NCBI GenBank assembly: GCA_035582835.1
Contig: JAYKAV010002020.1
Coordinates: 302,792 to 366,791 of the forward strand
DNA from: Phoebastria nigripes
Taxonomy: Eukaryota; Chordata; Aves; Procellariiformes; Diomedeidae
Direction of reading: 5' to 3'
Length of the DNA stretch: 64,000 bases
Shown: piece after piece, positions 5,142-49,562 of the stretch
Position numbering within the stretch: the stretch's first letter is position 1
How the letters are laid out: every line of letters starts with the position of its first letter
The notes under the pieces: generated by a model
Databases searched by the model: none
Told to the model about the DNA's origin: nothing
The model's input: only the letters and a program-made list of their open reading frames with translations
Made by a program: the position numbers and the translations under genes

Positions 5142-8100
5142 CTGGAAGACAAAATAAAATCATATTAAAGATGCCACCCTAATATAAAAATTCAATGCAG
5201 AAATAACAATGTGGCAACATAGTGCTAACCATAAGTGCAAGTGAAACCAATTTTTAATCACCCTGATTCTCTGTACTTAGATCACACTTAATTTACCATT
5301 TAAAAAACAAAGATTAAAGCCATTAAAATAAAACCTCATACCCATTACTGGCATGCCTTTATCAGATGAGTAAGTAACTATTGTATTAGCATGGTAAGTA
5401 TTTGCAAGCCAAAACCTCTGATTTCTCGAAATACACCCATTCAAAAAACATTAAAAATGTTTATCAGGAGCCTTGCTCTTTTCCTGGTGTCTGTAAAATC
5501 CCAATGTTGATGGCTTCATGTGGCACAATAGAAATCCCACTTCCTGATGTATTAACAGAAGTGGTGATAATGCTTTGTTTGAGCTATTGACGCACCCCAC
5601 ACCAGCAGATGGATGCCTTCGCATTCACACAGGCCAGTGAATATCCAGACCTTGCTGGTGTCCACAGCTAGTGTGCTGACAGCTAAGAGGCCAGGCACAG
5701 AGCTGAAGGGTGGCTCTGTTGCCTGTTGAGATTTGTTGTCTGGATTTTCTTCAGACTGTACAAATTTTAGCATGGCTAGTCCAAACAAGGACAAGGCTCA
5801 TTCTGGCCAGGAACAGATAACCAATACAGTGAATGCAAGCTGTGCTCCTCAGTCACTGCTTTTCACAACTGAAGTACACAGCTGACCAGGTCATCTACTG
5901 TGGCTCGTGCCTATGCAAAGAGGCAGCTCCCAGCCCTGCTTTGCTGCTGTGCAGCCTCTGCAGGAAAAACGAGGGCTGGCTTCGATGACACAGGATGTAC
6001 CACAGACAAGCGTGGTATGAACCCAGTTTTCAAGGGGGTTGGAAAGGATGGTGAGGGAGAATAGAGAAAGCAGACTGAGGTTAGGTCCTGGCTCCTTAAT
6101 TTAGACAGCGTGATAGGAGGGGTAGGGAAGGTACTCCAGTAAAGCAAGCCCATATTCTAGGCAAGAATAGTTGCTGCTGCTGTGGGAAATGCATTCAACT
6201 TTCCTATTCATTGACCAGTGTTTTGTCTCAGTTAAGCCATGCAGTTTTTCATACAAACAGTAATAACAAGAATAAAAATGAGATCTGAATTATCCTAATG
6301 AAGCTGGAAGCCAGTGTGGAGGCAACTGTTTTCCCAGTCCTCAAGAAATCCCACCGGGGCATCCAGGCAGCCTCCTGCCCCAGGGGCCAGATGAGCCAGG
6401 GGCCGGAGGAGGGTCCTGGCAGAAGGCAGACAGTGCTGAACACAACCCTTTCACTACACATCAGCTCTTCTGAACTCTCAGACGTAAATTAAAATTCAGC
6501 GTAATGGATTGCCAGGCATTACAATTCAACGTAAAAATTGTCAGATATTAAGTCAACCCTGAGCGTCCCAGCCAGGCCATCCAACCATCTGAATCAGACA
6601 GAAACTTACCTTGAAACAGTCCAACCTTGTGCGTACAGCTCTTGCTTACCCTTTGTACTCTGGTTCTAAAATTGTTTTCCATTACTAGCTTTATTACAAT
6701 GTGTGATAAAATAATTCTGAATTTCTAACTATATTTAATAAATAGAAATAGCTAGCTAATACATAATTTAAAACAAACACAAAATAACCTTAAAGAGCTT
6801 CAACATACCTGTACAAATTCCACAGACATTTTAAGTATTTCACTATGTTTTAAAAATGCAGCACCTTTACCTTCCCAGAAGCCACCAACTACATATGGTC
6901 TCCCTGACATACAGCCCTGCTATTAACAAGCCATGTTTAAAGACAAAGCATGTAAAGCTCACCTATCAAAGGTATGTTTTCAGAGGGAGGCATGATCTCT
7001 GCAACCATCAGCTGGAACACAGTCAGAGCAAGAAGAACCGTAACGCCCAGAGACACTTTTTCCCCAGAGTCTGCAGGGAGATAGAATCCCAGTGGGGCCA
7101 GGAAAGAGATCAAAATGCAAGGAAGCAACAGATTAAATATGTAGAAAGAAGACTTCCTTTTCAAAATCAGTGTGAAGGTCACATCTGGATAAGGCTCAGA
7201 GCAGCAGCCATAAGTGATGACATTCTTAACCGCTGGCATACCATGAATCTCCCATTCCACATCTTCTACAAAGTCAGAGAGGTCACCACTATCAAGAGAA
7301 TTGATGATGTCTACCTGATTACCATTATAGGTCCAGGACCCAAATGTAAGGTTGCACTGCTGGCTGTCAAAAGGAAAGTAAGATACATCCACTACACATG
7401 AGCTCTTTGTGATAGCAGGTGCATCCCAAGTGATTTTTCCATCATATCTCAACACAACGTTAGTATTCACTGGTTCTGAAAAGTCATCATCAGCCCTAAA
7501 AGACAGAAAAGTGACAGTCAGGATTGACAGGCAACAACCTAGAGTGTGGGCCAGGGAAGGGGGGGCAGGGGGAAAACCCTTGCTTCACACCATTAAAAGC
7601 ATGCTTCTGAAATCATATTTATATTTATACTGAATTTTATTAGGAACTTACTATTAACTATTATTTATAGGTACTAGTGCCCATTTATGCCAAACATCAG
7701 TGCTGCTAAATTATGTTGTATTTGTTGGCCATAGCTTCTTCAAATTTGACCGCAAACAGGATACAGTAGGATAAGAATCCATTCAAAGATGAAAATAATC
7801 TGCTGGTCACTACTGGCCTGGGAGAGCAGACAACGAGTGCAGTCTTCATGTACCACCTTTTTGTGGACAAAATCTTCCAGAGCTCTTCAGCAGCCTCAGC
7901 AGAAAGCACTTCAGACTGCCAGGGTATTCAATTCCCAGTGCAGAGAAATTCAGAGCAGTTTTGCTGTGTAGCATAATCAATTGCCAAATCCTGTCTATGG
8001 CTTTATTGCAAAATATTTAGATGATCAACAACAAATGTTAAGACAACAAACATACCCCTTGCTAAGGTAAGGTGAAGTGATGTAAGTTCAGACTCTGTGG

Positions 8101-21573: not shown

Positions 21574-21579
21574 TTTATT
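21574..21579 (-). terminator. Candidate poly(A) signal of the recombinase-like gene
   Basis: AATAAA on the minus strand 260 nt past the stop codon, giving a compact 3' UTR. Its spacing supports a transcribed gene rather than a bare element remnant. Confidence 0.5.
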
Positions 21580-21838
21580 AACTCACACTATACAAGATAA
21601 AACTGTCTGCAGACTTGCTCTGTCAAGACAGACAGACAAGGTCCATGCACAGCAGGTTTGACACTCCCCCACCTTCAACACTACAGACAGCACCAGCAGC
21701 AACTGTGAGTGAACTTCAGAGATCACCACATCGTGAGGCAGAAAATTCATTACAGGTGTTAATACCAAATTACTGCCAAAGACTAGAAACTATACAGTTA
21801 AAAGCCAACTCTACAGAAAGAAGGTAATTCATTAGCTT

Positions 21839-22782
21839 CTATTTCCCGTTGGTCTCCACAGCTATGATCTCTCTGGGATCATACATACAGGGCCATCTTG
21901 CCAGGCGAGTGATGTCTTCCCCAGGATAGCCACAGCGCGCAGCAGTGACGGCAGTCCCCAGCCAGAAGGAATGCATGCCATACTGCTCCGGGCACAGCCC
22001 CAGCAGCCACAGGGCCCATCGGAAAACAGTCAGGAACTCCCTCTTTGTTACAGTCGTATTATCCAAGTGCATAAAGAGTGGCCCTTCCAGCTGTGAACGA
22101 ACTGTCACATAGCACCGGAGGGCCTGAACAGGGCACACCCATGGCTCTCCAGACAGCCCAATGCTGATGACATGTCTCTCCTGACCCACAGGAGAGTTTT
22201 GCAGACAAAACACCACTCTCCTCTCCATCAGCTGGAGGTCACTCAGGTACAGCAGCTCGGGCTGCAGTACACCACGGTGCTTCGCCACCAGCTCTCCTAT
22301 TCGAAGTGCCCCAAAAAAAGCTACAGTAAGTAATGCACGAAACAGTAAGCATTCATAGTGAGTTATGCATACAGACTCCAGAGCTCCTAAGAGGGATCGC
22401 AACACCTCAATTGTTATAGGCAAGTATTTATCCCTCAGGATGCCTGCTTGACGTTTCAACCCTATCACCATGCAATGGGTTATAGGATCTTCCAGAGGAT
22501 CAGGGTTACCAGTCAATTTTGATAAATAAGACAGTGCCACCACATACATCTGAGTCTTTGAGGATGAATAAAGAGATTCCACAGCCCAAAACCCTCTAAC
22601 TTGCTCCTCTGGAACTGGCCAGGCTGCAGGCATTCCCATGCTTTTCCTAGAGACAAGGAATTTCTTCAGTCCTTCGAGGTAGGCTTGCCAAAGCCTACTA
22701 TCCCCTGAGCACTGCAACAACGACAAAGTCTTCAGAGGCCACGGTCCCAAAGAATGTTTCCGAGGACAACTAAACTCCCTTC
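21839..22782 (-). CDS. Recombinase-like gene, coding exon 2 (recombinase domain)
   Basis: The acceptor CTCTTGTAG precedes 22782. The exon holds 313 codons and TAG without interruption. The first in-exon residues (REFSCPRKHSLGPWPLK) match the plus-strand copy (VPEKHPLGPWPLK), so the true exon starts 33 nt before the open frame's first alternative start codon, TTG at 22750. Confidence 0.75.
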
Positions 22783-23569
22783 CTACAAGAGAGGATCCAC
22801 GTTAGCACACGCTGACAACCAGCACAAGCATGCCACTCAAGCAGCAATAAAGATAGTGTTCCTCAGTGCAATACACCCCTAGACAATGCTCTGCTAGTTT
22901 ATCTGATTAAAGACAACTCACACACAGCTACACCCAGAGCTGTTAAAGAGCTGAGATATTTTTCAAATGGGAAACTACAAGCAACATACCAGGCCCATTT
23001 CAGGCACTAGATCTGGTAACACTCTGGGAATTTACAAGTTTGTGGAGTAGTAATGGAGAAGACAAGCAAAAAGCAATTTTAAACCCAAGCCTTCCTGGTA
23101 TGGCTTACAGAAATTACAACTGCAAAGGACACACAGCACACTCCCGCCAGAAGGCAGCGTATTTCCCAGCCCAGGACAGGGAACTCCCTCGAGGCCTTCC
23201 TCCAAAAGCTCCGGCCTCACACAAGAACTCGAGCAAAACCAAGGAGAGACTGCCCGGCGGGAGCCACGGCGGCCAGCGATCCGCACGCCCCCCCGCCCAG
23301 AGCCAGAGCCCAGCCCCCGGCTACGGGGGGGGGGGCAGGCTCTGAGCCGCCACCGCCGCACGTGCTGGCGGCCCCGCCACAGAGCACGGTCCGCACTTAC
23401 CAGCCACCGCCGCGCCGCGCTCCACGCACTGCCAGGCGCCGCCGGGGTGCGCCACCGCCGCGGTCCTACACGCTGCTCCTCGGCTGCGATGCGAGAAGGT
23501 GGCTGGTTGCCCAGCAAGGCCCAGCTCCAGCCACTCCACGCCTGGCTCCCGGGCCAGCAGCGCCAGCAT
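21839..23569 (-). CDS. DIRS/Ngaro-type tyrosine-recombinase-like host protein (two exons, 370 aa)
   Basis: Exon 1 (23569-23401) and exon 2 (22782-21839) join through a phase-1 GT-AG intron into 371 codons including the stop. Residues from about 68 on resemble the recombinase of DIRS/Ngaro retroelements. The core-binding domain (about 88-170) has WPVPEEQV and TGNPDPLEDP. The catalytic domain starts near KYLPITIEVLRSLLGALES, with box I FFGALRIGELVAKH (Arg217), then HSFWLGTAVTAA (His327) and LARW (Trp353). Family members normally have HxxR, a lysine in the beta-hairpin and a tyrosine 8 residues after the final Trp. Here these positions hold Trp330, Pro254 and Glu361, so strand cleavage is unlikely. 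DNA binding may remain. Exon 1 residues 1-56 show no recognised domain. No reverse transcriptase or other element gene is nearby. The intact frame, intron, CpG-island promoter and poly(A) signal suggest a captured host gene, unproven by expression. The ATG has G at -3. Confidence 0.72.
23401..23569 (-). CDS. Recombinase-like gene, coding exon 1
   Basis: The ATG at 23569-23567 starts MLALLAREPGVEWLELGL. The frame upstream is closed by a stop, so this is its only ATG. The exon ends GTGGCTG|GTAAGTG, a near-perfect donor with intron start at 23400. The single leftover G joins GA of exon 2 to make glycine 57. An out-of-frame ATG at 23666 opens a 66-codon frame overlapping this start. It would lie within about 10 nt of the predicted transcription start and so may be skipped. 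Part of the exon aligns with 24565-24606 on the plus strand. Confidence 0.6.
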
Positions 23570-23696
23570 CTCCCAAAAGGGCGCGGCGACAGGCCCAGCC
23601 GGAGTGCGGGCACTGCAGGACACGGCAGGAGGACGAACACCGCGCCCAACCCTCCCTGCGGGGCATGAAGACTCTTACAGCTACCCCCCACGGGCC

Positions 23697-23704
23697 CTTT
23701 CATA
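23697..23704 (-). promoter_or_regulatory. TATA-like box of the minus recombinase-like gene
   Basis: GGCTATGAAAGGGC on the minus strand contains TATGAAAG, about 130 nt before the start codon, predicting transcription start near 23675. CCAAT-type motifs lie upstream at 23735-23740 and 23777-23781. The same core, GGCTATAAAAGGGC, precedes the plus-strand copy. Confidence 0.45.
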
Positions 23705-24383
23705 GCCGCGGAGCAGCTCGCAACGCCCTCCTCCGATTGGGTACTCGGAGAGGCCCCGGCGATCCGGAGCGCTGCCATTGGCTGCCCGCCCGACGCCGTC
23801 CCGCGCTCGCCCTGGCCTGGCCGGGCCGGGCCCCGCCCAACGGGGAGCGGCGGCGGGTGTGAAGCGGCCGTTAGCGAGGGGCGGCGCCACGAGAAGAGCG
23901 CGAGGAACCGGGCCTGGCCCGCGACCTGCAGGGCGTGAAACTTCCGGGCGTTTCTTACACGGTGTTCTGCCAAAGCCTGAAACACGAATGGATTTACCGA
24001 TAAGGTTAAAAGGAGAGAGAAGCACTTGCGCTACCTACCCGTTGTTCTCCTGGGCTCTCCAAGATGCGGTTTCCAGAAAGCAACCAGGGCCAAGGAGATC
24101 AAGTCACACAGCGGAGGCGCACCCGCGGGCACACCATCTCTCACCGCCGGCGCCTTCCTCAGCCCCCAGTTGCAGCACAATGAAGGCGGTAACGGCCCAT
24201 TTAGCTCCAGGCAGTGAAATCCCATCTTCCGGGCGGTTCCCGCCCAGGCCCGCGGGCGGCCCCAGCGGAGGAGGCAGGACGGGGTGACCCCGCAGAGGCT
24301 GCCCCGCCGCCCCCGCTCCGTCCCGCAGGCACAGGCGCCGCCGCCGGGCGGGGCGGGGCGCAGAGCCACGTGGCTCGCTCGGC

Positions 24384-24457
24384 GATTGGCTAAGAGAGGG
24401 GCGAGGGCGGGCGGGGGACGCTCCGATTGGTTAGCAGTACAGGCCAGGCTATAAAAG
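24384..24457 (+). promoter_or_regulatory. CCAAT/TATA promoter of the plus-strand copy
   Basis: Inverted CCAAT boxes GATTGG sit at 24384-24389 and 24425-24430. A canonical TATAAAAG at 24450-24457 within GGCTATAAAAGGGC predicts transcription start near 24480. The promoter looks intact although the coding region is broken, so a non-coding transcript is possible. Confidence 0.55.
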
Positions 24458-24564
24458 GGCAGCACGGAGGCAGTGGTGAGGCGTCGCTGCGTCGCAGGCG
24501 TGTGGGTGCGGTTTTGTTGGCCGTGCAGGGCGGCGGGGGTCGAGCCGCTCGCTTCACTTTCACC

Positions 24565-26314
24565 CTTCTGGGCGCTGCTGTGGGAGCCAGGTACGGGGTG
24601 GCTGCGGCGCAGTCTGGGTGGCTGCACTGGATCGTAGGGTCCCAGTGGAGTGGAGGCTGACAGCAGGGGAGGAGCTGGTGAGTGTGGCCCTGGGGGGTCC
24701 GCTGCATGGTGGGGGAGGTTGGCAGAGGCTTGGCAGATTCTTCTGTGGGATCTGACCTCAGTGCTGGAAGACTTCTGGGACCTGTGTGCACTGCTGAATC
24801 TGTTGCGATGTGTAGCTTTGTTACTCTCAACCCCTTGTGCCCCTTGATGGAGGTCTGGGGTTGCAGAAACCTTGCTGTAGTGTGCTGGGTCTGTCACCAG
24901 GCTTGAGGCATTGCTTTAAAGAGAAAAATCACTGGAGTTTTTATGTTTTTTGAGAATTTAATTCTTTTCTTGTGCTTTGGCTGTTGGAAGCTGTGCAGGT
25001 GAGAGTCATAAGAACGCAAGGGACAGGCTTTTTTCAGAGAAGTTCAAGCAAAAGCAGAAGTGTGTTGAAAGGGAGGAAACTTGTCTGCTTACTGTCTGTG
25101 AGACTACCTTGTTTGCTGTTGCTAATGTGGATTTCTTTCAGCAGATGAACTCAACCAGGTTCCTGAGAAGCATCCTTTGGGCCCTTGGCCCCTGAAGGCT
25201 CTGCTCTTATTGGAGGACTCAGGAGATAGCCACTTATGGCAGGTCTACCATGAGGGCCTGAAGAATTTCCTTGCCTTTAGAGAAGGCATGGCTCTGTCGT
25301 CTGGCCAATTCCCATGGATCAAGTGAGAGAGTTCTTGGTTGTCATCGAGTCTCAGGATCTGCCTCCCACAAAAATTATAATGTATGTGGAAGGACTGTCC
25401 TTCATCTCCAGAATGGTAGATAATCCTGATCCTCTTCAAGATCTTGTTACCTGTCACGTGATACCAAGGTTGAAATGTAGGACTGGCCCTTCAAATGATA
25501 AATACTCTCCTGTAACTATTGAAGTGTTAAGATCTCTCCTGGGGACTCTGGAATCTGCATGTAGCTCTCCTTATGAGTGTGTATTGTTCTGTGCCATGTT
25601 TACTGTAGCTTTTCTGGGGGCACTCCGTATAGAAGAGATGGTGGCAAAACACAACACAGCCAGAGCTCCTGTACTTGTGTGACCTCCAGCTGACTGAAGG
25701 GGGTGCAAACCTTTGTTTGCATACATCTCATATGGGCCAGGAGAGGTTTTTGATCCAACTGAGATTATCTAAAGAGATGTGGGTATGTCCTGTTGAAGCT
25801 CTCCATATATATGTGGCAGCACGGCCACAAGGAGAGGGCCCTCTCTTCGTGCACTCAGACAGTATGGCTGTGACAGAGAGAGTTCCTAACTGTCTTCCAC
25901 CGTGCTCTTGGGCTTGCTGGACTTCCTCCAAAACAGTATGGTGTGCATTTCTTCTGGTTGGGGACTGTTGTAACAGCAGTATCTCATGGGTATTCTGATG
26001 AAGCTATTAACAGAATAGCAAGGTGGTGGTGAAGATCCTGAAGAAGACATAGTTTCATCTATCTGTTGGGCTTCCACAGTAAGGGGTGTCTTCTGCAATG
26101 CAGAAATTTTATACTTTATACAGACTAAAGTTTCAATGCTCTGTAAAGTTACAGAGAAGAGGAGTAACTAGTACAAGGTGATTTTTCCCACCTGGGATGG
26201 TTTTGAGAATGGAGTGTCATGGTTTTAAAACTGCTGTGACTTGTGGGTCAGTTTGCATGCTATTCAGCATGTTTGTTCTAATTGTATTTTGACCTTGTGT
26301 AATCTTATATTAAA
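24565..26314 (+). pseudogene. Decayed inverted copy of the recombinase-like gene
   Basis: Coding similarity runs from 25145 to about 26029 and matches the minus gene from VPEKHPLGPWPLK through FLGALRIEEMVAKH and VHFFWLGT to RIARW. At least three frameshifts are visible: a 2-nt gain near 25290-25300, an 8-nt loss near 25655 and a 2-nt loss near 25875. A TGA follows at 26030-26032. The exon starts at the same place and phase as exon 2 of the minus gene, behind CTTTCAGCAG, a tandem acceptor; the second AG gives the matching length. Exon 1 similarity survives at 24565-24606 (CTTCTGGG, CGCTGCTG, GGGAGCCAGG), but a 9-nt gap removes the ATG. The box II arginine is already Trp, as in the minus gene. 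ATTAAA at 26309-26314 could end the transcript. A spliced duplicate of this kind arises by DNA duplication with inversion, not by retrocopying. Confidence 0.75.
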
Positions 26315-29100: not shown

Positions 29101-31738
29101 CGTATCCCTGCATCTACCCAGAGGTGTTGGTAGGAGATGACATTTGGAGTTTTAAGAGCTATCAGACACAGCTGGGCTTGCAAGACTCAAGGGATGGCTT
29201 TCACGGGCCACAGGTATTGTCCCCACCAGGATCCCCAGTGCTAGAACTTAGACCTGCTTATTGGGCAAACAGTATGCATGGAAAATGTACCAGATTTAGG
29301 CAGCTTGCCAAAAGCTGCCTGTGCTTTTACCGGGCCCAGTTTAGCAAAGTTTAAAAGAGGCAGGATGACTTTTTCCCAGATCTTGACATTTAAATGTGCC
29401 CCAGCTTGGCAAGCCTCCATTTGTTGGAGGAGAAGGGCTGACGAGCGGGGCACAGGCAGTGAATCGTGCGCAGTGGGTAGCTGCCAAAAGGAGGAGGAGG
29501 CAAAAACGTTTAACTGCTTGTCCGATCAGGCGTTACGGGCTGCCCCTCCTCTGCAGGCTGCACTTCGCTAGGCACGGGTGCAGGGCTTGCATGTTCCTGG
29601 GCTCGGGCTTTGACCTGCCCTGGGCTTTTGTCATGCAAACCACATGTCAAAGAGTGCAGAGGGTACAAAAGCAGCCAACTGCTCCTCCTCATGAAGCACC
29701 ACCAAGCTATCCCTTCAAATTACAGAAATGCAAGGTCACCGTTTCAGCTGAGGACGTGGTAATGCTTTTTGGGGCACAGAGGGTCCAGGTCACCCCAGGG
29801 CAGGGCTGCAGCACCTCTGTTGCCAGAGGAACTGGGTGTGGACCCAGTGCACACCACCCCCTCCACAGCAGCCGGTGCTCGGGGAAGAGCTGCTTGCCAC
29901 ATTGCGTTGCGGGCCGGTTGGACCACAGCGCCGTGCCTCCATGCCGCGGCCAGCAGCTCCACGGCCAGTGTCTTGCGGTATGGGGTACGAATCACACACA
30001 GTCATTCTGTTGCAATTTATTTTTTCCAAATTCTTTTTGGCCAGTGGGCAAAATGCATCTCCCAGTGAGCTGGCAGCGCACAGCCCGTTGCGAAAAATGG
30101 ATTTCACAGAAGTCTGCTGCCCCACACCCCTATCTTTGCCATGCACCTGGTGAAACGGTACAGTGAGCTGCCTTGAATTTAAACCGGTGTACCAAGTATC
30201 ACCTCCTAACCTGTTGCCGTATGGCTGGAAGTTTCATTTGGGGCTTTTCTTCGTACAGCCCGAGTGAATGCAGCCTTTTTGGCAGGTGTTTCCGGCGCAG
30301 AAAGAAAACAGGCCCCTGTGGTTAAGCCGCGTAGTTTACTTCAGCTCGCTCGTCAATCGGCGCCAAGCGCAAGCAGCTCCCCCACCTTATGCCCCTGCAA
30401 AAAAACTCCAGAACCAGGAAAGTATTTTAACAGCCAGCACTAACCTCAATATTTAATTTTACCCAAAGAAAGTAACTTTAAAAAAAAAAAAAAAAAAAAA
30501 ATTTACTTGGTTTTCAGTGACAGTGGCTGCAAAAACTGGGCTAGGGCAGCAGTGCGGTGGGTGCTGCCAGTGGCTCCCGTGCCCAGGAGAAGCTTCCCAG
30601 CCTACCCCGGCCCCTTGCGCACATCCCCATCGCTGGATTTGCTCATCCCAGCCCGAATGGAAGCGTGGCTACCTGCTTCCTTTTCACCAGGGCGACTGAG
30701 GAAAAATAAAGACCTCTGAAGGCTCCTGAAGGAAAATTAAGGAGCAAAATTAAGCTGAAAAATCCAGTGATGGAATTTGTGGTAATACTCCCATGGGCAG
30801 AGCACAGCCAAGCCTGACATGAGTGCAGGAAGCAAAGAAAGGCTTCCTGGGCCAGAGATTCCAGGGCATGCCTATGTCTACACCTCCAACCATACAATAA
30901 GCACTGAAGCAAGTTCAGCTTTTTTCTTCTTCCACAAAATTTCCCCACCTGGTCCTGCAGAAGCAAGCAATAATCTTTTTTCTTGTTTTTTGTGGCTACA
31001 AAACCCTGAAGAAGGGGTTTGGGTACCTACCGATTTTAATTGGGGTGTTGGCATCTGAGTGGAAGATGAGCACTCCAGCTCCCATTTCTGCCAGTGGTCC
31101 CTTCCCCTTGCGGTTCTCCAGGGCAGACCCGGTATGCTGCCTTTGAGTCAGCCTGAGGCGGCCAGGACTGTGGGGAAGCCTGCAGGCACACTGTTTGTGG
31201 CCGTAAGGTTTCTCAGCCCCTTGATTTTCCTACTACGTATGCACAGAAGCAGCTTTGTTTTGACAGTGTTATCTTCCTCACACTGCTCCTCACCCACCAT
31301 CCAGAAACAGGGTGTTCCTCTGTCTAAGAGCATGGGCACATGAAGAAATGAATTGACAAGTGTGAATTTACAGCATGTCATTTATTCCATGGTAACTACC
31401 CATGCATACACACTCCTCCTCAGCAAAACGCAAGGTAAAAAGGTGTTAATGACTTCATGCTTCATCAAAGAGCAGGAGCATTCACCCAGAGGTATTTTAA
31501 CCAAGCAGCTTACTCCACCGTAAGCTTTGCCTTACTTCTGACCTAATCCAGTCAAGGAGTGCGTCTCTTCGTTTCAGGCAATTAGCTCCCTGGCAAAGAT
31601 AAAGCTTTCATGTGTCCTTTAATCAAATGATCTGTCTCTATTTTGGGGTGTCATATTTGTGTTCTGCGGTATAGGACAGAGAAGACCTTGACTCCCTTTA
31701 AACGGGAGCGTGGTCAGGCTACCATTGAACAAGGCCTG

Positions 31739-47478: not shown

Positions 47479-48054
47479 TCAAAAGATCTTGCACTCGTTA
47501 ATGGAGAAGAGCTTCCGCCTGTTCTGCCTTTTGGCTTGATTGACTGCTGTCCGCACGGCATACTCAAACACCTGCTGCACCCCGCGGTTGCTGAGGGCAG
47601 AGCACTCCAAATAGCCTTTGGCTCGCACATCCTGGGCGAGCCGCTTCCCGTCTATCGGGCTGATGCAGGAGGAACGGTAGGGCCCTGTGTCGCGCTGGTC
47701 AGTCTGAGTAGCCACTACCAAAACAGGGATGCGGGGCAAATGGCTGCGGATCTCACCGATCCATTTGTTCCTCAGGTTCAGAAAGGAATTGTGGTTTGCC
47801 ACTGAGTAGCACATTAATACTACATCTGCCTGTTGGTATGAGAGGGGGCGAATGCTTTTGAAGGCATCGCTGCCAGATGTGTCCCAAAGACCTAGGCTAA
47901 TCTGTACACCATCCATGAAGACGTCCACTCCGGTATTTTCATATACGGTGGGTCTGTAGTCATCTGGAAAAGTCTCAGAGGTGAAACGTACCAAGAGAGA
48001 TGTCTTCCCCACCGCAGAGTCTCCCACTAGGACACACTTGATTGAATCCAGCAT
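47479..48054 (-). CDS. RHOH: Rho-related GTP-binding protein RhoH (191 aa)
   Basis: GTPase-deficient Rho-family protein of haematopoietic cells; in T cells it supports ZAP70/LCK recruitment to the receptor. Length (191 aa) equals the human protein. The start is the methionine of [20 protein letters not shown], 37 codons inside the longer open frame, because this is where RhoH begins. The P-loop is GDSAVGKT with Ser13 in place of the usual glycine. Switch II reads WDTSGSDAF, so the catalytic glutamine position is Ser62 (Asn in human as I recall). NKxD is replaced by TQTD (116-119), as in human. Tyr73 and Tyr83 of the ITAM-like segment ([15 protein letters not shown]) are kept. A basic stretch precedes the prenylation box CKIF (188-191), preceded by LFSINE. 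The whole coding sequence is one exon, as in other vertebrates. CHRNA9 follows downstream on the same strand. Confidence 0.97.
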
Positions 48055-48085
48055 TTTACTAACGTCCAGGGCCAAGAGCACCGTC

Positions 48086-48094
48086 TCTGCGCAG
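48086..48094 (-). other. Possible splice acceptor of the RHOH coding exon
   Basis: On the minus strand CTGCGCAG at 48094-48087 follows a moderately pyrimidine-rich stretch (CATCTCTCCATCCCACGG) and would leave a 32-nt 5' UTR before the ATG. RHOH has upstream non-coding exons in mammals, so an acceptor is expected near here; other AG sites are available. Confidence 0.3.
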
Positions 48095-49562
48095 CCGTGG
48101 GATGGAGAGATGCAGTAGTCTCGGGGACTCTCTAGATAACATCCATTTGGTGAGAAACCATTCAAATCTCTTTACTTCTCAAGGCTTGATTGTGTCACTT
48201 GACTCTAAAATCCCCTTTTCTCCCACGCAGCTCAGTGGTGCTGTCAGTTTTAATTCTTCAGTGAGTCAAGTGACGTTTCTGGAAGAGTAAAAATAAAATG
48301 TAACATTTACAACCCACAGAGAACAGACCATTCTTCATCAGGATAAACCCACCTGGACATGTCTTTGGACAGCCATGGAGAGTACCCCACACTGAGGATG
48401 CTGAACCTTGCCGTTCCCTCCCAGCCAGCTGTGTGTGTAGCAGCCATTCACATAAATAACCTTCCTGCTGCTCCACGGGGGCTAACAGTCCTATCACCTC
48501 TGCCATTCTCCACTGACACCAACTATTTTTTCCCTCCAATTGCCTAAAAAACTAATAAAATCAATTTAACTATGGTATAACTGCTACTAACCTGCTTTTA
48601 GCGAGACATTTCCTGTCTCTGACTTTCACCAAGACTGCCAAAATCCTGAATCCCTCTTAACCGACCAGTTCAGATTCCCTTAAAAAAGTACCCATGCTCT
48701 CTAGAGATAGTCAAGAGGAAAAAAGCCCTTCACTAACTGATTTGACTATTTAAGCAATCCTATAATGAACAGTAACATAGAACCACTTGTGACAATGAGG
48801 AAGCAAAGACTTCAGATGTGAATCTTGAGCGACACGAACCTTAAGAGTTTTCACAGCAAAAATACAAAAAATTTCAAATTTTTTCTTACAAATCACTTTC
48901 AGCAAGCAAGAAGCACAAGCCAAAGAAAGCCACACCACCAGTGCTTGCCCCAGTCAAACAATTTCATTTGAAGGGGATACAGCTGCCCTGACATTTACTC
49001 TGTTATAAAACTGAACTGAGAGTACCTCTTCAGAGTATGTAATTGCTTTTGAGCTTCTGCCAGCATTCAGTCAAATTTTCCTATTTGAAAGCATTTGCCT
49101 CTTCCCCACTAGCTGTGTGCAAGATTTGCTGCTCACACAGGGCGACACACAAGATGCTATGAAAATCACTAACTGCAAAACTGAAGGCATATTCTGCTCA
49201 ACAAAAGTAATTTAAAAAAGTATCACTGCATAATTTCAAAATGTCCTGTGTATATGTTACACAAATAATATATTTCTGCCTCCTTCATATATGAAGAGAG
49301 AAGTCACAGCTTAAGGTTATTTGCACAGAAATGAATGATGGCCACAAAAAGCATATACTCTACATTACCCTAGCCCCCCCCTACCACCACCCCACCTCCC
49401 AATTTCTAGTACACTCAAAGCTTTAGCTTACTCCACAAATGGGAAAAACAAAGGAAAATAAGAGAAAAGCACTATAGAAGCTTAGAGAGAACATTTTACA
49501 GGCACTGACAGCTGCTACTGGCAACTCCCCTGCTTTCATTTTGTAGTGAGTCGGTGCCCTAC

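Follow-up and report, generated by a model that had tools for sequence, protein, structure and literature searches.

A tyrosine-recombinase-like gene that has lost its catalytic residues, probably of DIRS-type origin, in birds and other sauropsids

What is an open, spliced gene resembling a tyrosine recombinase doing between a nicotinic receptor gene and a Rho-family GTPase gene in a bird genome? This question is raised by a 64,000-nucleotide stretch of the Phoebastria nigripes genome (hereafter the window; assembly GCA_035582835.1, contig JAYKAV010002020.1, positions 302,792 to 366,791, forward strand), in which a first-pass annotation made from the letters alone had proposed a candidate domesticated recombinase of the DIRS retrotransposon type. 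We find that this gene, denoted gene A, belongs to a family found in birds, crocodile, turtles and snakes, that a head-to-head duplication followed by purifying selection marks its history in birds, and that its product is almost certainly not a recombinase. A DIRS-type element is the probable source.

Results

Gene A belongs to a sauropsid gene family

Gene A is encoded on the minus strand by two exons, whose joined frame comprises 370 codons and a stop (Table 1). The intron is 618 bases long, and the residues on the two sides of the exon junction, AVAG and REFSC, are identical in the falcon model P0006; frame, GT-AG boundaries and falcon junction thus agree with the spliced two-exon gene first annotated. 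The exon 2 product retrieved 83 protein matches at E <= 1, the best at 2.2e-180, and gene A is therefore more than a chance reading frame. Family members come from many birds, crocodile, turtles and snakes, with Python, Crotalus, Pseudonaja and Naja brought in by a profile search. Annotations in many species list the product as an uncharacterised protein, and certain single orthologues already carry the name 'putative tyrosine recombinase'.

A first tree was built from 65 of 84 rows, namely those of at least 240 residues plus one turtle; palaeognaths are absent from the rows. Bird sequences fell into two clades: clade A, made of P0001-P0028 (75-89% identical) and P0040, and clade B, with 28 rows. 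Support was 98/100 for A, 100/100 for B and 94/82 for A plus B. In a second tree, built from 43 rows, A plus B reached 98/95 and a 100/100 branch separated the sauropsid rows from 23 active rows. Galliforms occur in both clades (Lagopus in A, Numida in B), and crocodile, turtles and snakes stand outside; on these trees the A/B duplication therefore falls between the divergence of birds from crocodiles and that of galliforms from the other birds. The A and B rows of gull, antbird, tit and starling come from contigs equal in size.

The catalytic residues are lost

The product is predicted to adopt a Cre/Xer-like recombinase fold, with a core-binding and a catalytic domain. Within the family Arg I, the His and the Trp of the active site are still present; Lys and Tyr are gone, and Arg II is mostly replaced by Trp. 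P0082 and P0083, which are catalytically complete, have a KTDQ hairpin that is missing from the family, HSFR where the family has HSFW, and a tyrosine beyond the point at which the family proteins end. Active-site residues were counted on 87 sauropsid rows, a set that includes fragments and isoforms. Neither the Lys motif SKTD (0/87) nor the active tail RWxSxx(F/Y)xxY (0/87) was found, and the place of Arg II held Trp in 71 rows, Cys in 4, Gln in one and Arg in one, with 10 giving no reading (not covered, or pattern absent). In certain B rows even Arg I is altered, to His or Cys. The residue set of an active tyrosine recombinase (Arg I, Lys, His/Arg II, Tyr) is not found in the family.

With Lys and Tyr missing from the active site throughout, and Arg II in nearly every case, the gene A product is almost certainly not a recombinase; judged from these residues, there is very little doubt that the whole sauropsid family is catalytically dead. 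The first-pass annotation had read the same core motifs as in DIRS and Ngaro recombinases, a statement that is true of the fold and of Arg I, His and Trp, and untrue of Lys, Arg II and Tyr. Searched by sequence against Pfam and PDB, the window product gave no match, and the family profile had no relative among viral contigs. A Foldseek comparison with viral models returned phage integrases and other recombinase folds, which offered no closer clue.

The nearest complete relatives point to a probable DIRS-type source

Among catalytically complete relatives, the nearest are anuran elements present in many copies, often named 'integrase/recombinase xerD homolog' (as named among the best 120 of 305 profile-search matches); P0082 and P0083 are about 33% identical to the family. 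The 118 new rows from the same best 120 of 305 carry HSFR in 112 cases, SKTD in 106, the box I pattern in 97 and the tail in 98, and 74 of them have all four motifs. In P0203 a partial match to RVT_1 (25.6 bits; Pfam cut-off 29.6) lies ahead of the recombinase part. DIRS elements have been described in Xenopus and Anolis (PMC9210276, PMC3266345), and DIRS fossils are reported from human, alligator and turtle (PMC9004415). PMC5753468 reports DIRS elements as not detected in bird genomes.

Since the kin are anuran and xerD-like, P0203 has a partial RVT_1 match and DIRS elements are known in Xenopus and Anolis, a DIRS-type recombinase is the best reading of the source. We consider it quite probable, the relatives having been classed by motifs and the reverse-transcriptase match rather than against named DIRS, Ngaro or Crypton references. 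The proposal of a domesticated DIRS-type recombinase is thus retained as to ancestry, since the nearest complete kin look DIRS-type, and given up as to recombinase activity, with Lys and Tyr in no row and Arg II in one. Pfam scans of the window product and of the family rows given listed no DUF3504 match.

We could not find the remains of an element around the gene. No reverse transcriptase was matched in the window (tblastn of P0203, the one query bearing this domain, matched its recombinase part alone). Between 18500 and 28500 the sole inverted repeat pair of at least 25 nt is the A/B coding match, accompanied by one weak direct pair (19165/19585). The earlier statement that neither reverse transcriptase nor split repeats adjoin the gene is thereby upheld, there being no flanking repeats of at least 25 nt within 10 kb save A/B. 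When the P. nigripes genome (1.2 Gb, 1961 contigs) was searched for DNA copies, two matches were obtained instead of the many expected of a DIRS element. One is A; the other, a plus-strand match of 68% (25161-25967), is gene B. With open orthologues in other sauropsids and two DNA matches in the genome, the capture of a host gene at a conserved position, as first proposed, is supported; the protein search suggested with that proposal matched birds, crocodile and turtles, and many near-identical genomic copies were not found.

A head-to-head paralogue and purifying selection

Gene B (24450-26314, plus strand), missed by the first-pass annotation, stands head to head with A, and the same CpG island is common to both. 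The TATA-like boxes of the two genes are about 0.75 kb apart; as to a conserved shared promoter element, the A and B upstream regions give one weak match only (E 0.001 over 37 nt). B retains a relative of exon 1 and an acceptor at the position corresponding to A. Its exon 2 differs from that of A by three frameshifting gaps of 4, 8 and 2 nt, and matches of the gull B protein, an open 355-residue model, to the window change frame in line with these gaps; by these alignments B appears decayed in P. nigripes. Several bird B models (P0042, P0043, P0048-P0050, P0052-P0054) have lost their C-terminal end after HSF.L.N or similar, which suggests that B decays repeatedly across birds.

Mismatches between A and B by codon position amount to 90/303, 71/305 and 135/305 for positions 1, 2 and 3. 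By the Nei-Gojobori method, 284 gap-free codons gave a nonsynonymous divergence (dN) of 0.29, a synonymous divergence (dS) of 1.20 and a ratio of 0.24 (bootstrap 0.15-0.34), which is rough because dS is high. B contains no stop codons in the 284 codons compared. In a neutral simulation at 0.1 change per site, 3.5% of runs stayed stop-free, before indels (indel rate assumed). Purifying selection acted after the A/B duplication, and gene A is very likely a host gene under selection.

The extent of gene A in P. nigripes is correct as an ATG-to-stop frame and differs from the family at both ends. The codon aligned with the first Met of the godwit, gull and some other models is GTG (23623-23621), so that the annotated ATG at 23569 is not the start of the godwit and gull models; it corresponds to the inner Met at which models P0005, P0008, P0010 and P0012 start. 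At the other end a tandem TATG (21887-21880) converts the short tail of the family (..IPERS, stop) into a 16-residue tail. For both changes, which the first-pass annotation did not record, decay, polymorphism and assembly error are all conceivable. We also observed a 66-codon upstream open reading frame that could damp translation of gene A.

Signals, neighbours and conservation of the locus

The CpG island noted earlier is confirmed by base composition (GC 0.64-0.74 and observed-to-expected CpG 0.77-0.92 in six 500-base steps), and the AATAAA signal is present as well. The TATA-like box of A is present and weak, and the better box in the region belongs to B. The neighbours of A are a nicotinic receptor gene, which we take to be CHRNA9, and a Rho-type GTPase gene, presumably RHOH. 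In Naja (cobra), model P0089 holds the family protein first and then a receptor, in the order and orientation of A and the receptor in the window, and its conserved receptor block matches the window exon at 66% over 187 aligned positions. The Limosa (godwit) orthologue P0001 carries the name of a Rho-related GTP-binding protein isoform. Taken as annotation slips, the cobra fusion and the godwit name fit a conserved position, and the locus looks conserved across sauropsids as read from gene models rather than DNA maps. Elsewhere in the window, a stop-to-stop open reading frame of 259 codons spans 29387-30166 on the plus strand.

Table 1. Positions of gene A, gene B and neighbouring features in the window
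Feature	Coordinates	Strand	Basis or remark
Neighbour: nicotinic receptor exon	6937..7584	-	matches receptor part of cobra fusion model
Gene A polyadenylation signal AATAAA	21574..21579	-	
Gene A exon 2, recombinase-like domain (core-binding and predicted catalytic-fold part), ending in the stop codon	21839..22782	-	frame, homology, fold
Tandem TATG close to gene A end	21880..21887	-	
Gene A intron, GT...AG, phase 1, donor GT at 23400	22783..23400	-	
CpG island separating A and B	23000..24749		
Gene A exon 1, coding from first in-frame ATG	23401..23569	-	frame; junction as in falcon P0006
66-codon upstream open reading frame	23466..23666	-	overlaps start of gene A frame
Gene A exon 1 frame 5' of ATG	23570..23623	-	matches the PFW motif at orthologue N termini
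Weak TATA-like box of A, TATGAAA, putative	23698..23704	-	
TATA box of B, TATAAAA, putative	24450..24456	+	better than that of A
Gene B exon 1, approximate	24542..24680	+	matches gull B N-terminal exon; right end inferred
Gene B exon 2, decayed paralogue	25143..26032	+	left edge inferred from acceptor
ATTAAA downstream of B	26309..26314	+	
Neighbour: Rho-family GTPase open reading frame	47479..48171	-	

Discussion

We propose that the tyrosine recombinase of a DIRS-type retrotransposon became fixed between RHOH and CHRNA9 in an ancestor shared by birds, crocodiles, turtles and snakes. Snakes and birds last had a common ancestor about 280 million years ago. Catalysis would have been lost with Lys, Arg II, Tyr and the C-terminal tail, the two-domain fold and a short conserved N-terminal exon being retained; in the bird line a head-to-head duplication would have produced A and B, of which A was kept and B decays in some lineages, P. 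nigripes among them. The product may act as a non-catalytic nuclear adaptor that binds DNA or chromatin weakly through its recombinase fold, holds protein partners and, like dead recombinase folds in other systems, regulates transcription or chromosome structure. We regard this account as somewhat probable as a whole. Its functional part, a DNA- or chromatin-associated regulator, is by analogy a plausible one to which we give slightly less than even chances, and it is favoured because of the precedents MrpR, the DUF3504 genes, Ndc10 and ALOG. In a bolder form, a whole DIRS recombinase captured some 280 million years ago would have become a non-catalytic regulator, doubled in birds as a divergent pair with a shared CpG island, having served first as a brake on DIRS elements and later in another role, and outliving the elements in birds; this form we think unlikely.

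Similar fates are known. The Crypton-derived DUF3504 genes (KCTD1, KIAA1958, ZMYM2/3/4, QRICH1, WOC) are likewise transposon tyrosine recombinases turned host genes, with the Tyr and second Arg lost (PMC3212892); their source is Crypton, whereas gene A is little more than the recombinase domain and lacks a known partner domain. The ALOG domain of plant developmental regulators comes from a DIRS1-type recombinase (PMC3537659), but gene A retains both domains and its hosts are sauropsids. DIRS-derived domains are reported in LAP2alpha and ZNF451 (PMC4495291, PMC5753468), and the LAP2alpha domain of TMPO and ZNF451 represents a DIRS1-like element captured by amniote hosts and held by purifying selection (PMC4495291); it derives from the gag-like first open reading frame and was fused to older genes in mammals, whereas gene A descends from a recombinase and is a stand-alone gene. 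The phage repressors MrpR and SroF and yeast Ndc10 also have a recombinase fold without recombination and act on DNA; they are taken as analogues of fate rather than relatives. The anuran xerD-homolog elements are the nearest complete kin, but they have many copies and catalytic motifs. In the open-licence PMC literature we found no report of a vertebrate gene derived from a DIRS recombinase, which does not prove absence elsewhere, and no paper treating CHRNA9 together with a tyrosine recombinase.

Several observations weigh against the proposed account. Median net charge falls from +16 in the 118 rows (best 120 of 305) to +5 in 45 long sauropsid rows, and the isoelectric point of the domain from 9.9 to 8.8 in the same two sets. 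Among columns conserved in the 76 complete rows, 30/76 are kept in 33 sauropsid rows, with Lys/Arg columns kept in 2/11 cases versus 25/58 for uncharged ones (a small sample). Together, the charge drop and the loss of Lys/Arg columns suggest that the fold was kept and the grip on DNA loosened, which speaks against DNA binding of the recombinase kind. The second, full-length structure model, that of gull A (P0002), is poor, with a mean predicted local distance difference test score (pLDDT) of 51 and failure outside the N-terminal half, where a helical hairpin is modelled at pLDDT 83-85 in blocks 11-30. The same gull A alone among the 87 sauropsid rows reads Arg at the Arg II place, probably by a single-base return from Trp. 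Of 154 conserved columns, 8 carry a change private to P. nigripes A, the second highest count of 29 A rows (the highest being P0015, 12/159); because of these changes and the altered start and tail, gene A is possibly relaxed in this species. Finally, the protein database consists of predicted open frames, and decayed orthologues are therefore under-seen.

The strongest competitor accepts the same origin and takes the product off DNA, the helical fold and N-terminal exon serving as a protein-interaction scaffold. It fits a domain that became less basic and gave up conserved Lys/Arg columns but kept those of the hydrophobic core, and it fits the modelled N-terminal hairpin; Kojima and Jurka give two options for dead recombinase domains, of which protein-protein interaction is one (PMC3212892). 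Against it, the active-site region still largely has its Arg I, its His and its Arg-Trp pair, and those dead recombinase folds that have been solved and whose role is known bind DNA (MrpR; SroF by entry title); we judge it possible, at about one chance in three. A role in genome defence, in which the dead protein would enter the recombinase assembly of active DIRS elements and poison it, draws on the multimeric action of recombinases (PMC3212892), which would let a dead member block them, and on a fold retained without catalysis. But A is kept in birds, where PMC5753468 reports DIRS as not detected, and its identity to active elements is low (see above), which makes defence improbable.

Two further explanations fare worse. 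Neutral decay or recent mobility, that is, an old relic open by luck or a young element, could appeal to the decayed copy next door and to the private changes in A; it is opposed by the two genome matches, the orthologues across sauropsids, the dN/dS ratio and the few stop-free runs of the simulation, and is very improbable. A mobile copy is rejected, A and B being the only DNA matches in the genome and orthologues occurring across sauropsids. That the protein is still an active site-specific recombinase is suggested by the fold, by the Arg I, His and Trp it keeps and by the gull model with a second Arg; set against SKTD and active tail in none of the sauropsid rows and Arg II in one, its chance is next to nil, and at the level of sequence it is rejected for want of Lys, Tyr and Arg II.

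It was known earlier that Crypton recombinases have become host genes, and that DIRS elements have given rise to a gag-derived domain in mammals and a DNA-binding domain in plants. If the proposed account is true, a whole DIRS-type recombinase kept as a stand-alone gene across birds, crocodile, turtles and snakes would represent a new source of host genes, and gene A would be a fossil trace, in bird genomes, of DIRS elements that are reported as not detected there.
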